From: Hymenobacter sp. HSC-4F20
Lineage (GTDB): Bacteria > Bacteroidota > Bacteroidia > Cytophagales > Hymenobacteraceae
Length of the DNA stretch: 64,000 bases
NCBI RefSeq assembly: GCF_019599275.1
Contig: NZ_JAHZTD010000001.1
Span: 1,550,001-1,614,000 of the forward strand
Reading direction: 5' to 3'
A program made the translations under genes and the position numbers. Shown in pieces: positions 16,879 through 44,419 of this stretch (positions are counted from its first letter, which is position 1; each line of letters opens with the position of its first letter). Under the pieces are notes generated by a model that was not told the origin of the DNA, did no database searches, and saw nothing but the letters and a program-made list of their open reading frames with translations.

Positions 16879-16911
16879 TTTGGTAGTGTAAAATTCTGAC
16901 CACTACTTTTG
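16879..16911 (+). promoter_or_regulatory. Promoter of the cys operon SAM module
   Basis: TTTG (16879-16882), 21 bases, then TACTTTTG (16904-16911): a full match to the Bacteroidota -33/-7 promoter. The same arrangement with a 20-base spacer precedes the second SAM module on the other strand. Confidence 0.75.
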
Positions 16912-16938
16912 CCCTACCAATTCTTTCCCCACAAAGGA

Positions 16939-17036
16939 TTGTTTTTATACAGAGGCGTGGAGAGACAGGCTCGACGAAACGCCGGCAACCAGCGGACCAT
17001 CCGAAACGGTGCCAACTCCTGACCATATAAAAACAA
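16939..17036 (+). promoter_or_regulatory. SAM-I (S-box) riboswitch upstream of cysH
   Basis: P1 is an 11-bp perfect stem, TTGTTTTTATA (16939-16949) with TATAAAAACAA (17026-17036). Inside are the conserved S-box elements: P2 GGCGT/ACGCC enclosing GAGAGACAGGCTC, then CGGCAACC, a small P3 (CGGACCATCCG), and GGTGCCAACTCCTGACC. S-box aptamers bind S-adenosylmethionine and usually lower expression when SAM is abundant. No terminator follows immediately; instead the P1 3' strand ends 6 bases before the GTG of a short ORF. Control of that ORF's translation is therefore a likely output. Confidence 0.92.
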
Positions 17037-17042
17037 CTAGCC

Positions 17043-17138
17043 GTGAACCGCTTGTCCAACTCCGCCGCCGCATCCGCCACTCCCTCTGCTCTACAGCATG
17101 GGTGTTGTGCTATGATGGGTATGCCGTGTTGTTGTTAG
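17043..17138 (+). CDS. Poly-cysteine leader ORF 1 of the cys operon
   Basis: A 31-codon ORF that starts GTG 6 bases after the SAM-I P1 stem and ends HGCCAMMGMPCCC followed by TAG. It has five Cys codons, all TGT, and three Met codons in its last 13. The sequence from the aptamer end to the GTG (GACCATATAAAAACAAC, two bases, GCCGTG) is shared with the second module. That argues the start is functional. It resembles amino-acid-sensing leader peptides: slow Cys-tRNA supply would stall ribosomes at the Cys run and could change folding of, or access to, the 207 bases before cysH. The mechanism is inferred. Confidence 0.72.
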   Translation: MNRLSNSAAASATPSALQHGCCAMMGMPCCC

Positions 17139-17247
17139 CCACTCACCTCCTCCTTTTTCTGGTTTGTACGACTAAGCAGCTCGGCTAACACGGTTTCTCG
17201 TGCGAGTTGCCATTGCGTACGCCCAACTTTTCGCCCGACTGCTGTCG

Positions 17248-17272
17248 GTGGCGCTTTCTGTAGCAGCGCCAC
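17248..17272 (+). promoter_or_regulatory. Hairpin between leader ORF 1 and cysH
   Basis: GTGGCGCT (17248-17255) pairs with AGCGCCAC (17265-17272) around a 9-base loop. No T-run follows, so it is not a classical terminator. It could be part of an alternative structure controlled by the leader ORF. Confidence 0.4.
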
Positions 17273-17345
17273 TCCTCTGTGCTAGGGCCTTCGTTTGGCC
17301 GAAACCTGCGCCTACGGGCCGGTTTTCCTCCCTTCTTTCTTTGTT

Positions 17346-18122
17346 ATGTCCGCAGCAACTGCTGCGCCGGCCGTTTATGCCTTGCTGAACGACCTGCGCC
17401 CCCGGCTGATTCAGGCTTCCGCGCTGGAGCGGCTGCGCCTCGTGGCGGAGCACTTTCCCTCACAGGCCGTCTTCTCAACCTCTTTTGGCCTGGAAGACCA
17501 GATTATCAGCCATCTGATTTTCACCCACCAGCTGCCCATCCAGGTTTTCACCCTCGATACAGGTCGCAATTTTCAGGAAACCTACGCCACCTGGAATAAA
17601 ACCCTGCTCAAGTACGAGCAGCCCATTGCGGTGTACTACCCCCAGCGGGAAAGCGTGGAGCAGCTCATGCTGGCGAAGGGCCCTAACTCCTTCTACGAGA
17701 GCGTGGACAACCGGAAGGAGTGCTGCTTTATCCGCAAGGTAGAGCCCCTGAACCGGGCACTGGCTGGGAGAGCCGCCTGGGTGACGGGCATCCGCGCCGA
17801 GCAGTCGCAGAACCGGCAGACCATGGATCCGGTGGAATGGGACGCGGCCCATAACCTGGTGAAAGTCCATCCCCTGTTCGACTGGACCTGGGACCAGGCT
17901 GTGGCCTTCACCAAAGAGCACCATGTACCCGTGAACACCCTGCATCAGCAGGGCTTCGTGAGCATTGGGTGCGCCCCTTGCACCCGCGCCATCCGGCCGG
18001 GCGAGGACTTCCGCGCCGGCCGCTGGTGGTGGGAGAACCTTTCGGCCAAGGAGTGCGGCCTGCACGCCACCGCCCACCACAACGGCCCCGACCCAGTAGT
18101 GGAGCCGGTGCCCGCAGGTTAG
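17346..18122 (+). CDS. cysH: Phosphoadenylyl/adenylyl-sulfate reductase, 4Fe-4S type
   Basis: Reduces activated sulfate to sulfite with thioredoxin-type reductant in assimilatory sulfur metabolism. It has 258 residues. The PP-loop region is FSTSFGLEDQIISHLI, then TLDTGRNFQETY. RKECCFIRKVEPL and IGCAPCTRAI supply the CC...CxxC ligands of a [4Fe-4S] cluster, which marks the APS-reducing type. KECGLH near the C terminus holds the catalytic cysteine. The lack of a cysC kinase nearby agrees with APS as substrate. ATG 17346 gives a normal start; the earlier in-frame start at 17295 has no similarity. First gene of cysH-cysD-cysN-cobA-cysJ, under the SAM-I/leader ORF module. Confidence 0.94.
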   Translation: MSAATAAPAVYALLNDLRPRLIQASALERLRLVAEHFPSQAVFSTSFGLEDQIISHLIFTHQLPIQVFTLDTGRNFQETYATWNKTLLKYEQPIAVYYPQRESVEQLMLAKGPNSFYESVDNRKECCFIRKVEPLNRALAGRAAWVTGIRAEQSQNRQTMDPVEWDAAHNLVKVHPLFDWTWDQAVAFTKEHHVPVNTLHQQGFVSIGCAPCTRAIRPGEDFRAGRWWWENLSAKECGLHATAHHNGPDPVVEPVPAG

Positions 18123-18297: not shown

Positions 18298-19209
18298 ATG
18301 AGTACCCCTTCTTTCGATTACCTCGACCGGCTCGAAGCCGAAGCCATCCACATCCTGCGGGAGGTGGCCGGCCAGTTTGAGCGCCCGGCCCTTCTCTTTT
18401 CCGGTGGCAAAGACTCCATCGTGCTGACGCGCTTGGCCGAAAAAGCCTTCCGTCCCGGCCGCTTTCCCTTTCCGCTGGTGCACGTGGATACCGGCCACAA
18501 CTTCCCCGAGGTGCTGGCCTACCGCGACCAGCTGGCCGAAAGTCTGGGCGAAAAGCTCATTGTCCGGAAGGTGGAAGACACCATCAAGCGCCAGCGGCTG
18601 CGCGAGCCGGGCGGCAAGTTCCCCAGCCGCAACCCGCTGCAGACGTACACGCTGCTGGAGGTAATCGAGGAGTTTGAGTTTGACGCCTGCATTGGCGGGG
18701 CCCGCCGTGATGAGGAAAAGGCCCGCGCCAAGGAGCGCATCTTCTCCGTCCGCGACGAGTTTGGCCAGTGGGACCCCAAGCGCCAGCGCCCGGAGCTCTG
18801 GAACATCTACAACGGCCGCATTCAGAAGGGCGAAAACGTGCGCGTATTCCCCATTTCCAACTGGACGGAGCTAGACGTGTGGCGCTACATCCAGCGCGAA
18901 AATATTGCCCTGCCCGACATCTACTTCGGCCACGAGCGCACGTGCGTGGTGCTCCCCACCGGCCAGCTGCTGGGCCTTTCGGAACACCTGCGCCTCGATG
19001 AGGACGATGAAATCGTGACCCGGCAGGTGCGCTTCCGCACCGTGGGCGACTCTACCTGCACCGCCGCCGTGGAAAGCGACGCCGCTACCGTGGAGGACAT
19101 CATTCAGGATTTGCTGCTGGCCAAAGTAAGCGAACGGGGCGCCACCCGCCTCGACGACAATATCTCCGAAGCCGGCATGGAAGACCGCAAACGCAACGGG
19201 TATTTCTGA
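18298..19209 (+). CDS. cysD: Sulfate adenylyltransferase subunit 2 CysD
   Basis: The catalytic small subunit of ATP sulfurylase, which makes APS from ATP and sulfate with CysN. 303 residues, the family length. It has the PP-loop LLFSGGKDSIVLTRLA near residue 40, HVDTGHNFPEV, CIGGARRDEEKARAKERIFS, and a C-terminal ERGATRLDDNISEAGMEDRK, ending KRNGYF as in typical CysD. ATG 18298 gives MSTPSFDYLDRLEAEAIHIL, the expected start. Second gene of the operon, with cysN 96 bases downstream across a small inverted repeat. Confidence 0.97.
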   Translation: MSTPSFDYLDRLEAEAIHILREVAGQFERPALLFSGGKDSIVLTRLAEKAFRPGRFPFPLVHVDTGHNFPEVLAYRDQLAESLGEKLIVRKVEDTIKRQRLREPGGKFPSRNPLQTYTLLEVIEEFEFDACIGGARRDEEKARAKERIFSVRDEFGQWDPKRQRPELWNIYNGRIQKGENVRVFPISNWTELDVWRYIQRENIALPDIYFGHERTCVVLPTGQLLGLSEHLRLDEDDEIVTRQVRFRTVGDSTCTAAVESDAATVEDIIQDLLLAKVSERGATRLDDNISEAGMEDRKRNGYF

Positions 19210-19212
19210 TTT

Positions 19213-19285
19213 AGAGCTTAGAACCAAGAGCCCAGAACCTAGAGGATGTTCTGGCTTTCAATTCAATTTCTAAGTTCTAAGCTCT
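19213..19285. repeat. Inverted repeat between cysD and cysN
   Basis: AGAGCTTAGAA (19213-19223) and TTCTAAGCTCT (19275-19285) form 11-bp arms. Variants lie at 20591-20680 and 43376-43431, making a second small class of intergenic hairpins. Confidence 0.6.
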
Positions 19286-19305
19286 CATTTCTAACGTCTT
19301 ATAAA

Positions 19306-20592
19306 GTGGACTTACTCCGATTTATCACCTGCGGCAGCGTGGACGACGGCAAAAGCACCCTGATTGGCCGCTTGCTCTACGATTCCGAATCCGTGTCGCT
19401 GGATGTGCTGGCGGCCCTGGAAAAGCGCCAGGCTTCCAATGGCACCGTGGATTTGGCCCTACTGACCGACGGCCTGCGGGCCGAGCGCGAGCAGGGCATC
19501 ACCATTGATGTGGCGTACAAGTATTTCACTACCCCCCGCCGCAAGTTCATCATTACCGATGCACCGGGCCACGTGCAGTACACCCGCAACATGGTAACCG
19601 GCGCCAGCAACGCCGACCTGGCCATTGTGTTGGTTGATGCCCGCCAGGGCGTGATTGAACAAACCCGCCGCCACACCCTCATTGCCGCCCTGCTGGGCAT
19701 CCGGCACTTTGTGCTGGCCGTGAACAAGATGGACCTGGTCGGCTACGACGAGGCAGTTTTTGCCCGGATTGCTACCGACTACGCCGAGCTGACCAACCAC
19801 TTCAACCTGCCTACGGCCACGGCTATTCCACTCAGCGCCCTCAACGGCGACAACGTGGTGAAGAAGTCGGCGCACCTACCCTGGTACACGGGCCCCAGCC
19901 TGCTGGAACACCTGGAAAGCGTACCTGGCGCTTCGGAAACGGCCGCTCCGGCCCGCTTCCAGGTCCAGTACGTCATCCGGCCCCAAACCGCCGAGCTGCC
20001 CGACTACCGTGGCTACGCCGGCCAGATCCAGAGCGGCCAGTACCGCCGCGGCGACCGGGTATCGGTGCTACCCTCGGGCCTGGAATCGGAAATTGAAGCC
20101 ATTGAAGTCAATCAGCAGGAAGTAGAATCGGCTTCGGCCCCGCAGGCCGTGGTGCTGCGCCTGCGCGACGATGTGGACGTGAGCCGCGGCGACTCCATCG
20201 TGCCGGTGGCCGAGGTGCCTACCCTCACCCGCGAACTGGAAGCTACCCTCTGCTGGATGAGCGAGCAGCCTCTGTGGCCGGGCCGCAAGCTGCTGGTGCA
20301 GCATCATTCGGCCCTGGTGAAGGCGGCCATTCCGGCCATCCTCTACAAGGTGAACGTGCACACCTTCGCCCGCGGCGCTGCCAACTCGGCCCAACTCAAC
20401 GACATTGTGCGGGTGCGGCTGAAAACGGCGCTACCCCTGGCCGTGGACAACTACCTGGAAAACCGCGCCACTGGCTCCTTTATCCTCGTCGATGAGCTGA
20501 CCGGCGACACGGTGGCGGCCGGCCTCGTGGAAGCGGCCAACTCGGAGTACTTCACCCTGCCCGTTGGCCCGCCGGTGACTTTTTCCATTTAG
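19306..20592 (+). CDS. cysN: Sulfate adenylyltransferase subunit 1 CysN
   Basis: The GTPase subunit that drives APS formation by CysD. It has 428 residues and an EF-Tu-like layout: GSVDDGKSTLIGRLL (G1) within the first 25 residues, REQGITIDVAYKYF (G2), ITDAPGHVQYTRNM (G3), AVNKMDLVGYD (G4), then two beta-barrel domains. There is no C-terminal APS kinase (CysC) extension. GTG 19306 is chosen because VDLLRFITCGSVDDG is the usual CysN beginning; the upstream 20 codons overlap the repeat and look non-coding. The repeat-filled gap after it leads to cobA. Confidence 0.95.
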   Translation: MDLLRFITCGSVDDGKSTLIGRLLYDSESVSLDVLAALEKRQASNGTVDLALLTDGLRAEREQGITIDVAYKYFTTPRRKFIITDAPGHVQYTRNMVTGASNADLAIVLVDARQGVIEQTRRHTLIAALLGIRHFVLAVNKMDLVGYDEAVFARIATDYAELTNHFNLPTATAIPLSALNGDNVVKKSAHLPWYTGPSLLEHLESVPGASETAAPARFQVQYVIRPQTAELPDYRGYAGQIQSGQYRRGDRVSVLPSGLESEIEAIEVNQQEVESASAPQAVVLRLRDDVDVSRGDSIVPVAEVPTLTRELEATLCWMSEQPLWPGRKLLVQHHSALVKAAIPAILYKVNVHTFARGAANSAQLNDIVRVRLKTALPLAVDNYLENRATGSFILVDELTGDTVAAGLVEAANSEYFTLPVGPPVTFSI

Positions 20593-20696: not shown

Positions 20697-21500
20697 ATGC
20701 CCACCACCAAATTACCACGCCTGACGGTGCTCGGCGCTGGTCCTGGCGACCCGGAGCTACTCACGCTCAAGGGCGCGCGGGTGCTGGCCGAGGCCGACGT
20801 GATTCTCTATGATGCGCTGGCTAACCACGCCCTGCTGCAACACGCCCGCCCCGATGCCCTGACCGTGCCCGTGGGCAAGCGCCGGGGCATGCGCAGCCAC
20901 GGGCAGGACGAAATCAACGCTCTGATTGTAGAGTACGCCCACCGCTACGGCCACGTCGTGCGCCTCAAAGGTGGCGACCCGTTTGTGTTTGGGCGAGGCC
21001 GGGAGGAAATGCTCTACGCCGAGGCGCATGGCCTAGCTACCGACTACGTGCCGGGCATCAGCAGTGCCGTGGCAGCGGCGGGCAGCGTGGGCATTCCGGT
21101 AACGCACCGGGGCCTGAGCGAAGGCTTCCGGGTAATTACGGCCACCACGGCCACCGGCGAGCTGTCGGGCAGCGTGGCGGAGGCGGCCCAATCCCGCGCT
21201 ACCACGGTTATCCTGATGGGCTTAAGCGAGCTGGAAAACATTGTAGCCGTGTTCCGCCAGTTTGGGCAGGCCGATACCCCGGCCGCCATTGTGCAGAACG
21301 GGACCCTACCCCACGCCCAGGTAGTAACGGGGTCGGTAGCGGCGCTGCCGGCGCTGGCCGCGGCAGCAGGCATTGGAGCCCCGGCCATCATCATTATTGG
21401 GGAGGTAGCCAAACTGGCTACTCCGGCCAGCCTGGCGGCCACACTGCCGCCCGCGGCTTTTGCGGTTGCTACCCCTGCTTCTTACGCCAAGGTAGCCTGA
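20697..21500 (+). CDS. cobA: Uroporphyrinogen-III C-methyltransferase
   Basis: SAM-dependent double methylation of uroporphyrinogen III to precorrin-2, first step towards siroheme, the cofactor of sulfite reductase. 267 residues of tetrapyrrole methylase fold: LTVLGAGPGDPELLTLKG at the N terminus, DALANHALL, VGKRRGMRSHGQDEIN, VVRLKGGDPFVFGRGREE, VPGISSAVAAAGSVGIPVTHRGLS, and the usual C-terminal region. It lacks the dehydrogenase/ferrochelatase part of CysG. That activity sits in the fusion protein at 29497-31008, so the two together replace CysG. Confidence 0.95.
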   Translation: MPTTKLPRLTVLGAGPGDPELLTLKGARVLAEADVILYDALANHALLQHARPDALTVPVGKRRGMRSHGQDEINALIVEYAHRYGHVVRLKGGDPFVFGRGREEMLYAEAHGLATDYVPGISSAVAAAGSVGIPVTHRGLSEGFRVITATTATGELSGSVAEAAQSRATTVILMGLSELENIVAVFRQFGQADTPAAIVQNGTLPHAQVVTGSVAALPALAAAAGIGAPAIIIIGEVAKLATPASLAATLPPAAFAVATPASYAKVA

Positions 21501-21550: not shown

Positions 21551-23389
21551 ATGTCTTTCCCTTCCACCACCCTTCCTATTGGCTTTGATGAAGCCACGTT
21601 GCAGCAACTGACGGCTGGCCTTACCGACCGCCAGCTGCTCTGGCTGAGCGGCTACCTCTATGGTCGGGTGGGCACAGATGCTACCCCGGCCGCGGCCCCC
21701 AACCCGGCGGCTACGGCCTCCGCTCCTACCCTCACCATTCTTTACGGCTCCCAAACCGGCAACAGCAAGAAAGCGGCCGGTATTGTGGCCGAAGCAGCCC
21801 GGAAACGCGGCCTTACGGCCACGGTGCGGGACATGAACGACTACCCCACCAAGGACCTCAAAACCGAGCAGCAACTGCTGGTAGTGGTGAGCACCCAGGG
21901 AGAAGGCGACCCACCCATTGCCGCCGAGGAGCTCCACCAGTTCTTGCTCAGCACCCGCGCCCCCAAGCTGCCGGAACTGCGCTTCGCGGTGCTGGCCCTC
22001 GGGGATAAAAGCTACCTACAGTTCTGCCAGACCGGCTTTGAGTTCGACCAGCGCCTGGCCGAGCTGGGCGCCAAGCGCCTCCTGGAGCGCGTAGACTGCG
22101 ACGTAGAGTTTGAAGCCGAAGCCCGCCACTGGGCCGAGCAAGTGCTAAGCCTGATTGCCGAATCGGCGCCCCAGGTAGTGGCTCCGGCCCCGGTAGCAGC
22201 CAATGCGCAGGGTAAGCCGGTTGCCCTTCAGGCCCTGGTGGGCGGTGCGGAAGTGGAGCTGGAAGAGCAGGTAGAATACAGCAGCCGGAACCCCTTCGAA
22301 GCCGAACTGCTGGAGAAAATTCAGCTCAACGGCCGCGGCTCTACCAAGGAAACGTACCACCTGGAGTTTTCCCTGGCCGGCTCGGGCATTCAGTACGAAG
22401 CCGGCGACGCCCTGATGGTGCAGCCCCACAACCGCCCCGGCCTGGTGCAGGAAGTGCTGGCTGCCGCCCGCCTGGACGCTACTGCCCCCGTGCGCCTGGA
22501 AACCTCGGAGCTAGACCTAACCACCGCGCTTACGGAGCGCCTGGAGCTGTCGGTCGTCACCCGCGACGTGCTGGAGCGCTACGCCGCCCTGGCCCCGCAG
22601 TACCCCAAGCTGCGCCAAATCCTGGCCGACAAAGCCCAGCTACCCGCCTACCTCTACGGCCGCGACGTAGCCGATTTGCTCCAGGAGTTTCCCGTGGAGC
22701 TGTCGGGGCAGCAGCTGGCGGCGGTGCTGCGGCCTCTGCCGGCCCGGGCGTATTCCATTGCTTCTTCCCTGCTGGCCCACCCCGAGGAAGTGCACCTGAC
22801 GGTGGGCGCGGTGCGCTACCAAAGCAACGGCCGCCACAAGCACGGGGCCTGCTCCAGCTTCCAGGCCGATCAGCTGCATATCGGCGACACGGCCCGGGTG
22901 TGGGTGGACCGCAACGAGTACTTCAAGCTGCCCCAGGACCCGAGCACCGACATCATTATGGTGGGCGCGGGCACCGGCGTGGCGCCGTTCCGGGCCTTTG
23001 TGGAGGAACGGGCCGAAACTGGCGCTACCGGTCAGAACTGGCTGGTGTTTGGTAACCCCCACTTCACCACCGACTTCCTCTACCAAACCGAGTGGCTGCA
23101 GCACCTCAAGCGCGGCACCCTCCACCAGCTCGACGTAGCCTTCTCCCGCGACCAGCAGGAGAAAATATACATCCAGCACCGCCTGCTCCAGCAAAGCCGC
23201 CGCCTCTACGACCAACTCGAAAACGGCGCTACCTTCTACGTCTGCGGCGACAAAAACCGCATGGCCGCCGACGTGCAGCGCGCCCTGCTCACCGTCATTG
23301 CTCAGGAAAGCGGCCAGGGCGAGGCCTACGCCGCCGACTACCTCAAGCAGCTCCGCAAGTCCCGCCGCTACCTCGAGGACGTGTATTAG
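21551..23389 (+). CDS. cysJ: Sulfite reductase flavoprotein subunit CysJ
   Basis: Transfers electrons from NADPH through FAD and FMN to CysI. 612 residues. An N-terminal flavodoxin-like domain has ILYGSQTGNSKKAAG near residue 65, STQGEGDPP and LALGDKSYLQFCQTG. A connecting and FAD-binding domain follows (RAYSIASS, HKHGACSSFQ), then an NADPH domain (IIMVGAGTGVAPFRAF, VCGDKNRMAADV), ending with the aromatic-terminated YLEDVY. ATG 21551. It is the last gene of the cysH operon. A long inverted repeat and a new leader region follow. Confidence 0.96.
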   Translation: MSFPSTTLPIGFDEATLQQLTAGLTDRQLLWLSGYLYGRVGTDATPAAAPNPAATASAPTLTILYGSQTGNSKKAAGIVAEAARKRGLTATVRDMNDYPTKDLKTEQQLLVVVSTQGEGDPPIAAEELHQFLLSTRAPKLPELRFAVLALGDKSYLQFCQTGFEFDQRLAELGAKRLLERVDCDVEFEAEARHWAEQVLSLIAESAPQVVAPAPVAANAQGKPVALQALVGGAEVELEEQVEYSSRNPFEAELLEKIQLNGRGSTKETYHLEFSLAGSGIQYEAGDALMVQPHNRPGLVQEVLAAARLDATAPVRLETSELDLTTALTERLELSVVTRDVLERYAALAPQYPKLRQILADKAQLPAYLYGRDVADLLQEFPVELSGQQLAAVLRPLPARAYSIASSLLAHPEEVHLTVGAVRYQSNGRHKHGACSSFQADQLHIGDTARVWVDRNEYFKLPQDPSTDIIMVGAGTGVAPFRAFVEERAETGATGQNWLVFGNPHFTTDFLYQTEWLQHLKRGTLHQLDVAFSRDQQEKIYIQHRLLQQSRRLYDQLENGATFYVCGDKNRMAADVQRALLTVIAQESGQGEAYAADYLKQLRKSRRYLEDVY

Positions 23390-31089: not shown

Positions 31090-32544
31090 TTACGCTACCT
31101 GCCGTTGGGCTTCCTGGCCCAGCTTGCTGTGCTTGCGCCCGTAGCCATAATAAATAGCCAAGCCAATGGCCAGCCATACGGCCAGGCGCAGCCAGGTTTC
31201 CCAGGGCAGGGACACCATCATCACCAGGCAGGTTAGAATACCCAGAATAGGTACCAGCGGCACCAGCGGAGTGCGGAACCCGCGGGGGGCATTGGGTTCT
31301 TTTTTGCGCATAATGAGCACGCCGATACACACCATCACGAAAGCCAGCAGGGTGCCAATCGACGTCATTTCGCCTACCACCGAAATCGGAACGAAGCCGG
31401 CAAATAGGGCAATAAACACGCCCAGCAGCAGATTGGACTGCAGGGGCGTATGGAAGCGGCCGTGGATGCGGGCAAACACGGGGGGTAGCAAACCGTCTTT
31501 CGCCATGGAGAAAAACACCCGGCTCTGACCCAGCAAATCCACCAAAATCACGGAGGTGTAGCCGATGATAATAGCCAGAATCACGGCCGAGGAAAGCCAG
31601 GCATAGGGCGTTTTTTCGATGGCAATAGCTACCGGCGCGGCGCTGTTCTTGAACTCGGTATAGTTGGCCAGGCCCGTCATAACGTGGCCGAACAGCACGA
31701 ACAGCACGGTGCAAATCAGCAAGGAGCCAATGATGCCGATGGGCATGTTTTTCTGCGGATTCTTGGTTTCCTGGGCCATCGTCGCCACAATATCGAAGCC
31801 GATGAACACGAAAAACACTACCCCCGCCCCGCGCAGAATACCGCTCCAGCCAAACTCGCCAAATACGCCTGTATTCTCCGGGATATAGGGTTGGTAGTTA
31901 GCCGGGTCGATGTATTGCCACCCCAGGGCAATGAACACCAGCACTACGGCCACTTTCAGCGTAACCACCAGCGCATTAAACCAGGCCGAGCCCGACGTAC
32001 CGCGGATAATAATGAGGGTAATGGCCAGCACAACGAGCATAGCCGGAATATTGACCAGGCCGTGCACGGCAGTACCATCGGCCAGCGTGGCCGTTTCAAA
32101 CGGCGACATCACTAGCTGCGGGGGCAGATTAATGCCATATTTGCTCAGGAACTTGAGCAGGTACTGCGACCAGCTGATGGCTACCGTAGCAGCCCCTACG
32201 GAATACTCGAGCACCAAGTCCCAGCCGATAATCCAGGCGAACAACTCGCCCATGGTGGCATAAGCGTAGGTGTAGGCGGAGCCGGCTACCGGCACCATGG
32301 AGGCAAACTCGGCGTAGCACAGGGCCGAGAAGGCGCAGCCTACGGCTGCCACCACAAACGAGAGGGTAACCGCCGGACCGGCATTGTTGGCGGCCGCAAT
32401 ACCGGTAAGCGAGAACAGGCCCGCGCCAATAATTACCCCGATGCCAATGGCAATCAGGCTGAAGCCGCCCAGACTTCGTTTTAGGGTGTGGGCGCCGGTT
32501 TCGGCCGCCTCCTGCCGTAGCAGTTCCAGTGATTTTTTAAGCAT
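31090..32544 (-). CDS. APC-family amino acid permease under SAM-I/poly-Cys control
   Basis: A 484-residue permease of the cationic-amino-acid-transporter-like APC group with about 12-13 membrane segments. It starts MLKKSLELLRQE, then SLGGFSLIAIGIGVIIGAGL, the conserved first-helix GxG motif. It also has GCAFSALCYAEFASMVPVAG and VFFVFIGFDIVATMAQETKN. ATG 32544 is preferred over starts further up, which lie in the leader. Substrate cannot be read directly. Upstream on the same strand are a SAM-I riboswitch and a poly-Cys leader ORF, so import of methionine, cysteine or a related compound during sulfur starvation is inferred. It converges on the sulfur operon. Confidence 0.92.
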   Translation of the reverse strand: MLKKSLELLRQEAAETGAHTLKRSLGGFSLIAIGIGVIIGAGLFSLTGIAAANNAGPAVTLSFVVAAVGCAFSALCYAEFASMVPVAGSAYTYAYATMGELFAWIIGWDLVLEYSVGAATVAISWSQYLLKFLSKYGINLPPQLVMSPFETATLADGTAVHGLVNIPAMLVVLAITLIIIRGTSGSAWFNALVVTLKVAVVLVFIALGWQYIDPANYQPYIPENTGVFGEFGWSGILRGAGVVFFVFIGFDIVATMAQETKNPQKNMPIGIIGSLLICTVLFVLFGHVMTGLANYTEFKNSAAPVAIAIEKTPYAWLSSAVILAIIIGYTSVILVDLLGQSRVFFSMAKDGLLPPVFARIHGRFHTPLQSNLLLGVFIALFAGFVPISVVGEMTSIGTLLAFVMVCIGVLIMRKKEPNAPRGFRTPLVPLVPILGILTCLVMMVSLPWETWLRLAVWLAIGLAIYYGYGRKHSKLGQEAQRQVA

Positions 32545-32799: not shown

Positions 32800-32907
32800 T
32801 CAGCAGCAACAACACCCTCCGGGCCAACAGGCCTGCGCTTGGGCAGACGCCCGCAAGCGGACAGCAGAAACGACGGAACGGGTACTACGGCAGGGGCAAA
32901 AGTCCAC
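32800..32907 (-). CDS. Poly-cysteine leader ORF 2 of the permease
   Basis: A 35-codon ORF starting GTG 6 bases after P1 of the second SAM-I riboswitch. It begins VDFCPC and ends QACWPGGCCCC directly before TGA; seven Cys in all. The body differs completely from leader ORF 1, but start codon, position relative to the aptamer and terminal Cys run are the same. That is the pattern expected when only the start and the Cys codons are under selection. It is followed by 255 bases before the permease ATG. It probably senses charged Cys-tRNA; the mechanism is inferred. Confidence 0.72.
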   Translation of the reverse strand: MDFCPCRSTRSVVSAVRLRASAQAQACWPGGCCCC

Positions 32908-32913
32908 GGCTTG

Positions 32914-33012
32914 TTGTTTTTATATGGTCAGGAATTGGCACCGTTCCAGCAGTTGCGGATGGTTGCCGACGCGTCTTAGAGCCTGTCTCTCAGCGCCTCT
33001 GTATAAAAACAA
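32914..33012 (-). promoter_or_regulatory. SAM-I (S-box) riboswitch upstream of the permease
   Basis: P1 is the same 11-bp stem as in the first copy (minus-strand TTGTTTTTATA at 33012-33002, TATAAAAACAA at 32924-32914). P2 is GGCGC/GCGTC, a compensatory change against GGCGT/ACGCC, enclosing the same GAGAGACAGGCTC. CGGCAACC and GGTGCCAATTCCTGACC follow. The P2-side loop reads TAAGAC instead of GACGAA, which might alter affinity. The covariation supports a functional aptamer. Confidence 0.9.
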
Positions 33013-33040: not shown

Positions 33041-33072
33041 CAAAGGTAGAACCGGAATTCTGCCTCTGCAAA
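33041..33072 (-). promoter_or_regulatory. Promoter of the permease SAM module
   Basis: On the minus strand, TTTG (33072-33069), 20 bases, then TACCTTTG (33048-33041). This is the same layout as at 16879-16911, and the sequence between box and aptamer (CAATTCTTTC, AAAGGATTG) is also shared. Confidence 0.75.
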
Positions 33073-44258: not shown

Positions 44259-44312
44259 AAGTATCAGCTAGTCCACTTTACCTGGTACTGTCCGTGGAAG
44301 TTTTGGGCAAAA

Positions 44313-44407
44313 AAAAGCGAGCCAAAATCGCACCGCTACAACCGTTTACCCTTGCTACCTTCCGGTCCTGGGGGAGTTCAACAGGAGCTGGTCGTTCTGA
44401 CTCGCCG
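44313..44407 (-). ncRNA. ffs: Signal recognition particle RNA (4.5S type)
   Basis: The minus strand contains AACTCCCCCAGGACCGGAA followed by GGTAGCAAGGGTAA, the conserved domain IV hairpin that binds Ffh (GGAA tetraloop, CCAGG/AGCAAGG internal loop). A TACCTTTG promoter box lies at 44418-44411, and a T8 tract follows on the minus strand. GGCGAG near the 5' end can pair with CTCGC before the T-run. Ends are approximate. Length about 95 nt, right for the short bacterial form. Confidence 0.9.
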
Positions 44408-44419
44408 GTGCAAAGGTAC

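Follow-up and report, generated by a model that had tools for sequence, protein, structure and literature searches.

The window analysed here, a stretch of 64,000 nucleotides from Hymenobacter sp. HSC-4F20, includes a cysH gene which is preceded by a promoter, a SAM-I (S-box) aptamer and a short leader ORF ending in a run of Cys codons (Table 1). On the same strand, cysH is followed by two genes which we take to be cysD-like and cysN-like, a tetrapyrrole methylase with a presumed role in siroheme supply, and cysJ. The window also contains a Bacteroidales small SRP RNA.

Table 1. Positions of the leader elements, genes and RNAs in the window.
Feature	Position	Strand	Evidence
Bacteroidota-type promoter, TTTG-N21-TAnnTTTG	16879..16911	+	Sequence and motif scan
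SAM-I (S-box) aptamer	16942..17033	+	RF00162, 73.7 bits, E 2.3e-15
Leader ORF, GTG start, 31 codons, ending ...QHGCCAMMGMPCCC-stop	17043..17138	+	Translation
Cys run at the ORF end (TGT TGT TGT, then TAG), where stalling is predicted	17127..17138	+	Sequence
Predicted hairpin, 38 nt past the leader stop, without U-tract	17176..17210	+	Fold of 17136–17225
cysH, phosphoadenylyl-sulfate reductase	17346..18122	+	Pfam PF01507 (PAPS_reduct), E 7.5e-45
cysD-like (presumed name), PAPS_reduct domain	18298..19209	+	Pfam PF01507
cysN-like GTPase (presumed name)	19246..20592	+	Pfam GTP_EFTU
Tetrapyrrole methylase	20697..21500	+	Pfam TP_methylase
cysJ, sulfite reductase flavoprotein subunit	21551..23389	+	NCBIfam TIGR01931, 715 bits (cut-off 668)
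Amino-acid permease behind the second copy	31090..32544	-	Pfam AA_permease_2 on the first 376 residues
Second leader ORF, GTG start, VDFCPCRSTRSVVSAVRLRASAQAQACWPGGCCCC-stop	32800..32907	-	Translation
Second SAM-I aptamer	32917..33009	-	RF00162, 72.0 bits
Promoter of the second copy, TTTG-N20-TAnnTTTG	33041..33072	-	Motif scan
Bacteroidales small SRP RNA	44311..44414	-	RF04183, 79.6 bits

Both window aptamers scored above the RF00162 gathering score of 44.4 bits and belong on structure and sequence to the SAM-I class, for which a response to SAM is predicted. The original prediction had placed the cysH S-box at 16939–17036, and these are the positions reached when the covariance match is extended by three extra P1 pairs readable in the sequence (TTG/CAA). 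The P1 helix of this aptamer consists of 8 bp (UUUUUAUA/UAUAAAAA) and is A-U throughout. The promoter noted ahead of the S-box has its 3' end 30 nt before the aptamer and follows the Bacteroidota-type consensus of TTTG-N-TAnnTTTG. The TAnnTTTG portion of this consensus is quoted in a passage of PMC9723704. The leader ORF starts 9 nt past the end of the Rfam aptamer and 6 nt past the extended P1, and translates as V(M)NRLSNSAAASATPSALQHGCCAMMGMPCCC with the C-terminus ...MPCCC directly before the stop codon. Translation and the Pfam match to PAPS_reduct also bear out the remainder of what had been predicted for the leader, namely a GTG-started 31-codon ORF 6 bases past the S-box with Cys codons at its end, and cysH 207 bases further downstream (ATG at 17346). 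No second Rfam match, whether to a tandem aptamer or to a T box, reached the gathering score in either window leader.

A second promoter, SAM-I aptamer and leader ORF, which are absent from the original prediction, lie on the other strand of the window (33072–32800), with an aptamer-to-ORF spacing that matches the cysH leader and a peptide ending in ...GGCCCC. This copy precedes an amino-acid permease (the permease frame is open from 32676, and the start at 32544 was picked by eye). The source genome contains six S-boxes in total, and five of these are followed 9–10 nt on by a multi-Cys ORF, ahead of cysH, the permease, metY, an ATP-grasp gene and a gene which presumably encodes a TonB-type receptor. 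The metH S-box is the only one of the six without a Cys-rich leader ORF, and four of the six pass the strict Cys-terminal test described below. Of the four further S-boxes with a Cys leader ORF, three (L001, L004 and L006) have the TTTG–TAnnTTTG promoter motif 30–31 nt ahead, and the metY S-box (L005) has a TTG variant of the promoter 48 nt ahead. A search of the source genome for TGYTGYTGYTRR, aimed at Cys leaders without an S-box, gave 210 matches compared with 36 in a reversed control; among the matches listed, these were mostly TGCTGCTG-like, and the search was set aside as uninformative.

We expanded the comparison to S-boxes from overlapping samples of 19 genomes (the source genome and its relatives), 79 genomes of the order and 80 of the phylum. 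A total of 250 sites were read, made up of 80 from the genus (all of those listed), 118 from the order (all but one), 23 from the same class and 29 from the same phylum; 45 further same-phylum sites and one sub-threshold order site (G081:C4, 34.4 bits) were left out of the counts. In the strict test, a site is positive if the leader ORF has at least three Cys among its last 11 residues. It should be noted that ten of the 250 aptamer slices lack the simple core motif and were retained, with three of them (L059, L178 and L196) counting among the 81 positives reported below, and that L227 was counted as negative because its aptamer end was misplaced, despite an ORF ending in ...MCCCC. Genes such as metY and metH were labelled from motifs, and single representatives of cysH, the permease, the ATP-grasp gene and metY were also checked with Pfam; metH, hom and metX carry the motif label.

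The strict test was passed by 81 of the 198 genus and order sites. When the flanks of the same 198 sites were dinucleotide-shuffled in 30 rounds, 2.4 sites passed on average and never more than 5. Every one of the 18 genus genomes has one or more strict cases, as do 45 of the 74 genus and order genomes having S-boxes. The positives are unevenly distributed amongst the downstream genes, with none at the 55 metH sites and 81 at the 143 other sites (Fisher p 3e-16). For metY, the strict test was passed at 18/18 sites in the genus and 25/37 in the order, and in the genus and order together the permease (13/14), ATP-grasp (10/10) and TonB-type (2/3) sites were also mostly positive. Of the 40 unlabelled sites, 5 passed (14 under a relaxed test); there were no passes for hom (0/3), metC/B (0/4) or metX (0/1). 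Under the relaxed test, 14/14 permease and 47/55 metY sites are positive, compared with 2/55 for metH. The original prediction had named relatives which keep the aptamer without a Cys-rich ORF as the observation that would count against it, and we find that the genus and order cysH sites keep such an ORF in 13/13 cases by the relaxed test and in 8/13 by the strict test. Counting against the two-input account proposed below, 43 of 117 sites ending in TATAA(A/C/G) fail the strict test, and some of these, such as the metX-like leaders L131 and L161, have no ORF at all. Outside the order, none of the 52 sites read (23 same-class and 29 same-phylum) is a strict case, and the sole cysH site read there (L250) has no Cys-rich ORF. 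The arrangement is present on genes which make or import reduced sulfur, and is absent from metH by the strict test.

A number of less familiar genes are also found behind these leaders. A RimK-like ATP-grasp gene follows the Cys leader in all ten of the labelled genus and order cases (L001, L036 and L044 among them) and is a candidate sulfur gene; in L036 and L044 the next gene is one which we take to encode a luciferase-like monooxygenase. Five S-boxes (L006, L011, L052, L164 and L192) have Cys-rich leader ORFs with the QHxCC motif seen in the cysH leaders, and the genes behind them, presumably TonB-dependent-receptor-like, may possibly be involved in the uptake of sulfur compounds. Other genes behind an S-box and Cys leader (L125, L145, L178, L259 and L270) include a Na+/H+ antiporter family member, a nitrite/sulfite reductase, a class-V (desulfurase-like) aminotransferase, a pyridine-nucleotide oxidoreductase and OsmC. 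Tiny ORFs ending in C or CC (e.g. MKTRYCC) were also noted after S-boxes of one family of the order (L216, L220, L221 and L222), and are candidates for a reduced or decaying form of the leader.

As both the strict test and the genome scan described below pick terminal Cys, the rise of Cys towards the stop codon is partly built in and we have left it out as evidence. We undertook instead a frame analysis of 129 TATA-type sites in which no ORF was chosen beforehand and eleven kinds of codon were compared. Runs of at least three codons of the same kind after the aptamer, in any frame, were found for Cys at 75 of the 129 sites, with Phe next at 11. An ATG or GTG lies no more than 18 nt from the aptamer at 74 of these 75 sites, and the Cys run is in frame with the first such codon at 67 of the 74, with no intervening stop in 66; at the remaining seven, a nearby ATG opens an ORF in frame with the run. 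The run abuts the stop codon in 40 of the 66 open cases. Among the leaders in general, as many as nine Cys follow one another. In 70 of the 81 strict leaders the start codon is 7–11 nt past the aptamer, with a mode of 9. The genus leaders use TGT and TGC in a ratio of 175:101, compared with 14:139 in the genes that follow them (p 4e-30), and this mixture of codons indicates that the amino acid is preserved while the codon varies.

Frame conservation and mixed codons are indirect evidence that selection acts on Cys codons within a translated frame, and not on a mere repeat. A conserved UGU-repeat RNA element would also account for the nucleotides which are conserved, as these are UGU/UGC repeats, but it would leave unexplained the retention of the first-start frame and the nearby in-frame ATG at the seven other sites, as well as runs broken by other whole codons (e.g. 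CICMCCCCC) and by TGC, and we give this explanation next to no weight. A function of the peptide itself, perhaps that of a metal- or redox-binding microprotein which is rich in Cys and co-regulated by SAM, is suggested by the longest of the runs; we consider this highly improbable given that the N-terminal part varies widely between leaders, that four leaders tried had no NCBIfam match and that the Cys run mostly adjoins the stop. The bias towards TGT, which the downstream genes avoid, means that pausing could occur without starvation, and the leader might then be the translated expression platform of an ordinary SAM riboswitch in which the rare Cys codons serve only for a fixed pause, without any sensing of cysteine. 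We find this rather improbable, as Cys runs alone stand out among the eleven codon kinds and the leaders are found on sulfur-supply genes and not on metH. What is seen in the leaders is a short ORF with a run of Cys codons ahead of sulfur genes, as in amino-acid leader ORFs, and the frame conservation lends indirect support to the prediction that the ORF is translated and responds to the charging of Cys-tRNA.

Further analysis of 84,980 species genomes, using a scan pattern made up of the 3' part of the aptamer, TATAAA and four Cys codons at a fixed distance, found at least 119 matching stretches, with some genomes matching more than once. Matches were confirmed by a DNA profile of the aptamer, the 5' half of which lies outside the scan pattern, and by an in-frame Cys-terminal ORF. 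Among the matches listed, 113 of 119 (77/80 plus 36/39) have both the aptamer and an in-frame poly-Cys ORF, and the Cys run is in frame with the first ATG or GTG in 106 of these 113 (72/77 plus 34/36). The six stretches which are not cases are from Paludibacter, Opitutales and Fredinandcohnia MAGs, a Bacillota MAG, Tamlana haliotis and one of two Mucilaginibacter rigui loci. By title, the confirmed loci among the matches listed comprise 112 from Bacteroidota and one from Glaciecola amylolytica. The genera listed include Hymenobacter, Pontibacter, Adhaeribacter, Thermoflexibacter, Mucilaginibacter and Lewinella, and the MAG titles listed include Chitinophagales, Saprospiraceae and Flavobacteriales (lineages looked up for four species gave Cytophagales, Sphingobacteriales and Saprospirales; Chitinophagales and Flavobacteriales are by title only). 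With named loci in several orders, the combination of aptamer and Cys leader extends well past the order of the source genome, yet it is not the rule in our phylum sample. We note that the locus titled Glaciecola amylolytica (L341, CP034120.1) has an aptamer and poly-Cys leader whose peptide is like that of a Flavobacteriales MAG (L266), and because of this resemblance the genome may be mislabelled or the locus transferred.

We propose a leader with two inputs, in which the ORF would be closed to translation by SAM and the ribosome would stall at the end of the ORF if Cys-tRNA is short, with the operon switched on only when both are scarce, and consider this a reasonably probable account of how these leaders work. 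That the leader integrates SAM level and Cys-tRNA charging, as the original prediction supposed, is in our view the best reading of the sequences. As only 9 nt separate the 3' strand of P1 from the start codon, the closed helix would cover the ribosome landing site; given the size of the ribosome footprint, P1 falls within the region where the 30S subunit lands, and its stabilisation by SAM would be expected to block translation of the leader. P1 in the leader class is almost pure A-U and should therefore open readily without SAM (the 81 leader sites have on average 0.30 G-C pairs among the eight of P1, compared with 2.16 at the 55 metH sites), and A-rich sequence such as that of its 3' strand is favoured by the ribosomes of Bacteroidota. 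At low SAM the ORF would then be read, and the terminal Cys run could report the charging of Cys-tRNA. In the last step, which is the weakest, the stalled ribosome would keep the downstream RNA open to RNA polymerase; a leader left untranslated at high SAM, or a ribosome released at high Cys, would lead to transcription stopping before the gene. We have assigned the ON state by need, since the genes behind the leaders supply reduced sulfur, and metH, which lacks a strict Cys ORF, does not.

Such a premature stop would more likely be brought about by Rho, by a hairpin after the ORF, or by both, than by a classical U-tract terminator. A simple scan found no intrinsic terminator (a G+C hairpin plus U-run) in the cysH leader, and terminator-like sites occur at only 12 of the 81 leaders, at 12 of the 55 metH sites and at all three hom S-boxes, so we rejected classical attenuation with an intrinsic terminator as the rule. 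The terminators of the hom S-boxes (L009, L013 and L089), which are from the same genus, are clear, and S-box output therefore seems to take several forms within one genus. A Rho domain gene is present in the genome, and the body of the leader ORFs has an excess of C over G relative to genes (p 2e-16). No significant excess in C-richness over genes was found in the 60 nt past the stop codon (p 0.12), which makes a rut site there less likely, and the RNA of this region is somewhat structured. The fold of the 90 nt which include the predicted cysH-leader hairpin has an energy of -24.2 kcal/mol (z -1.62), and hairpins between +30 and +80 from the stop are mildly enriched across 150 leaders (p 0.013 and 0.004, uncorrected and with related sequences).

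The same two sensors could also act through translation, with the stalled ribosome refolding the leader and freeing the cysH start region without any premature termination, and an output of this kind has been proposed for some actinobacterial leaders. The scarcity of U-tract terminators agrees with this, as does the finding that the RNA between the start of the Cys run and +76 forms more stable folds than shuffled sequences do (mean z of -0.98 for 151 leaders, compared with -0.05 for 148 in-gene controls). However, the gap between the leader stop and the gene is long (207 nt here, with a roughly estimated median of 165 over the 81 leaders), its sequence is little conserved among cysH leaders, and complementarity between the Cys run and RNA further downstream, which we looked for because of GTTAGCC/GGCTAAC in the window, is not generally enriched (p 0.08 and p 0.47). 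We think a translational output unlikely, and have a slight preference for early termination via Rho or a hairpin.

Put in terms of logic, the two-input leader might be a ligand-gated codon sensor, in which the SAM-I aptamer of Bacteroidota, instead of acting on the gene directly, admits ribosomes to the poly-Cys leader and gives 'low SAM AND low cysteine' for a whole sulfur regulon (the cysH operon, sulfite reductase, metY, permease, ATP-grasp enzyme and TonB receptors), with metH, which serves methionine only, remaining a plain SAM switch; we are evenly divided on this. The logic is directly testable because metH in the same genomes provides the contrast. If true, a riboswitch gating a codon-reading attenuator would amount to a naturally occurring RNA logic device with two inputs, serving many sulfur operons in several Bacteroidota orders, and it offers a hypothesis for how the supply of Cys is balanced with that of Met and SAM from one sulfide pool. 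Annotators would also have reason to search behind S-boxes for leader ORFs which have been overlooked, and genes of unknown role that share this leader, such as that of the ATP-grasp enzyme, would be flagged as likely sulfur genes.

The original prediction knew of no such combination in Bacteroidota and our literature search agrees with this, as no SAM aptamer coupled to a Cys leader ORF was found among the titles and abstract openings listed in searches of open-access PMC. The parts are known singly and the combination is apparently new, as far as can be searched, and apparently both widespread and undescribed. Canestrari reportedly described polycysteine leaderless ORFs in mycobacteria in 2020 (doi 10.1111/mmi.14498); those ORFs are leaderless by title, whereas here the ORF is immediately 3' of an aptamer. 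Passages of a riboswitch review deal with uORF attenuators and SAM riboswitches separately (PMC9971707), and the transcriptome papers for Flavobacterium psychrophilum and Bacteroides thetaiotaomicron refer in part to leader-peptide-like ORFs in general (PMC9723704, PMC7366714).

The closest known Cys leaders are those of actinobacterial cys operons, where leader ORFs with Cys codons and without terminators were predicted in 2005 (PMC1262725). According to the relevant passages, they share with the leaders described here a short ORF whose Cys codons lie close to the stop, sulfur genes downstream and the lack of a conserved terminator hairpin, and Rho was suggested in a prediction which the authors themselves called weak; in contrast, those passages mention no aptamer, and our ORFs lie directly behind a SAM-I aptamer in another phylum. 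In Salmonella, the tandem attenuators of mgtCBR also place two signals in one leader, one of them read via Pro codons in a short ORF, but they use two ORFs, respond to ATP and proline in an independent and additive manner, and have no metabolite aptamer named in the sections concerned (PMC3641672).

Control of ribosome entry by a riboswitch also has parallels. The M. tuberculosis B12 riboswitches of metE and ppe2 control a translated uORF, translation of which is required in the case of ppe2, but the ligand is B12 and no amino-acid codon sensor is described in the text concerned (PMC11260477). In the Sinorhizobium metA leader, a SAM-II aptamer governs ribosome entry far from the real start, and this differs from our leaders in the class of aptamer and in that the relevant passages mention no Cys leader (PMC9373788). 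The nearest in logic are the tandem SAM-I / T box(Met) leaders found before metX and metY, of which two examples are given with a predicted NOT A AND B logic (PMC9481103). As outlined there, these likewise combine a SAM OFF switch with a sensor of tRNA charging on the same kind of gene; their second sensor is an RNA which binds uncharged tRNA-Met, whereas in the leaders described here it would be a translated run of Cys codons, found at more than 100 loci.
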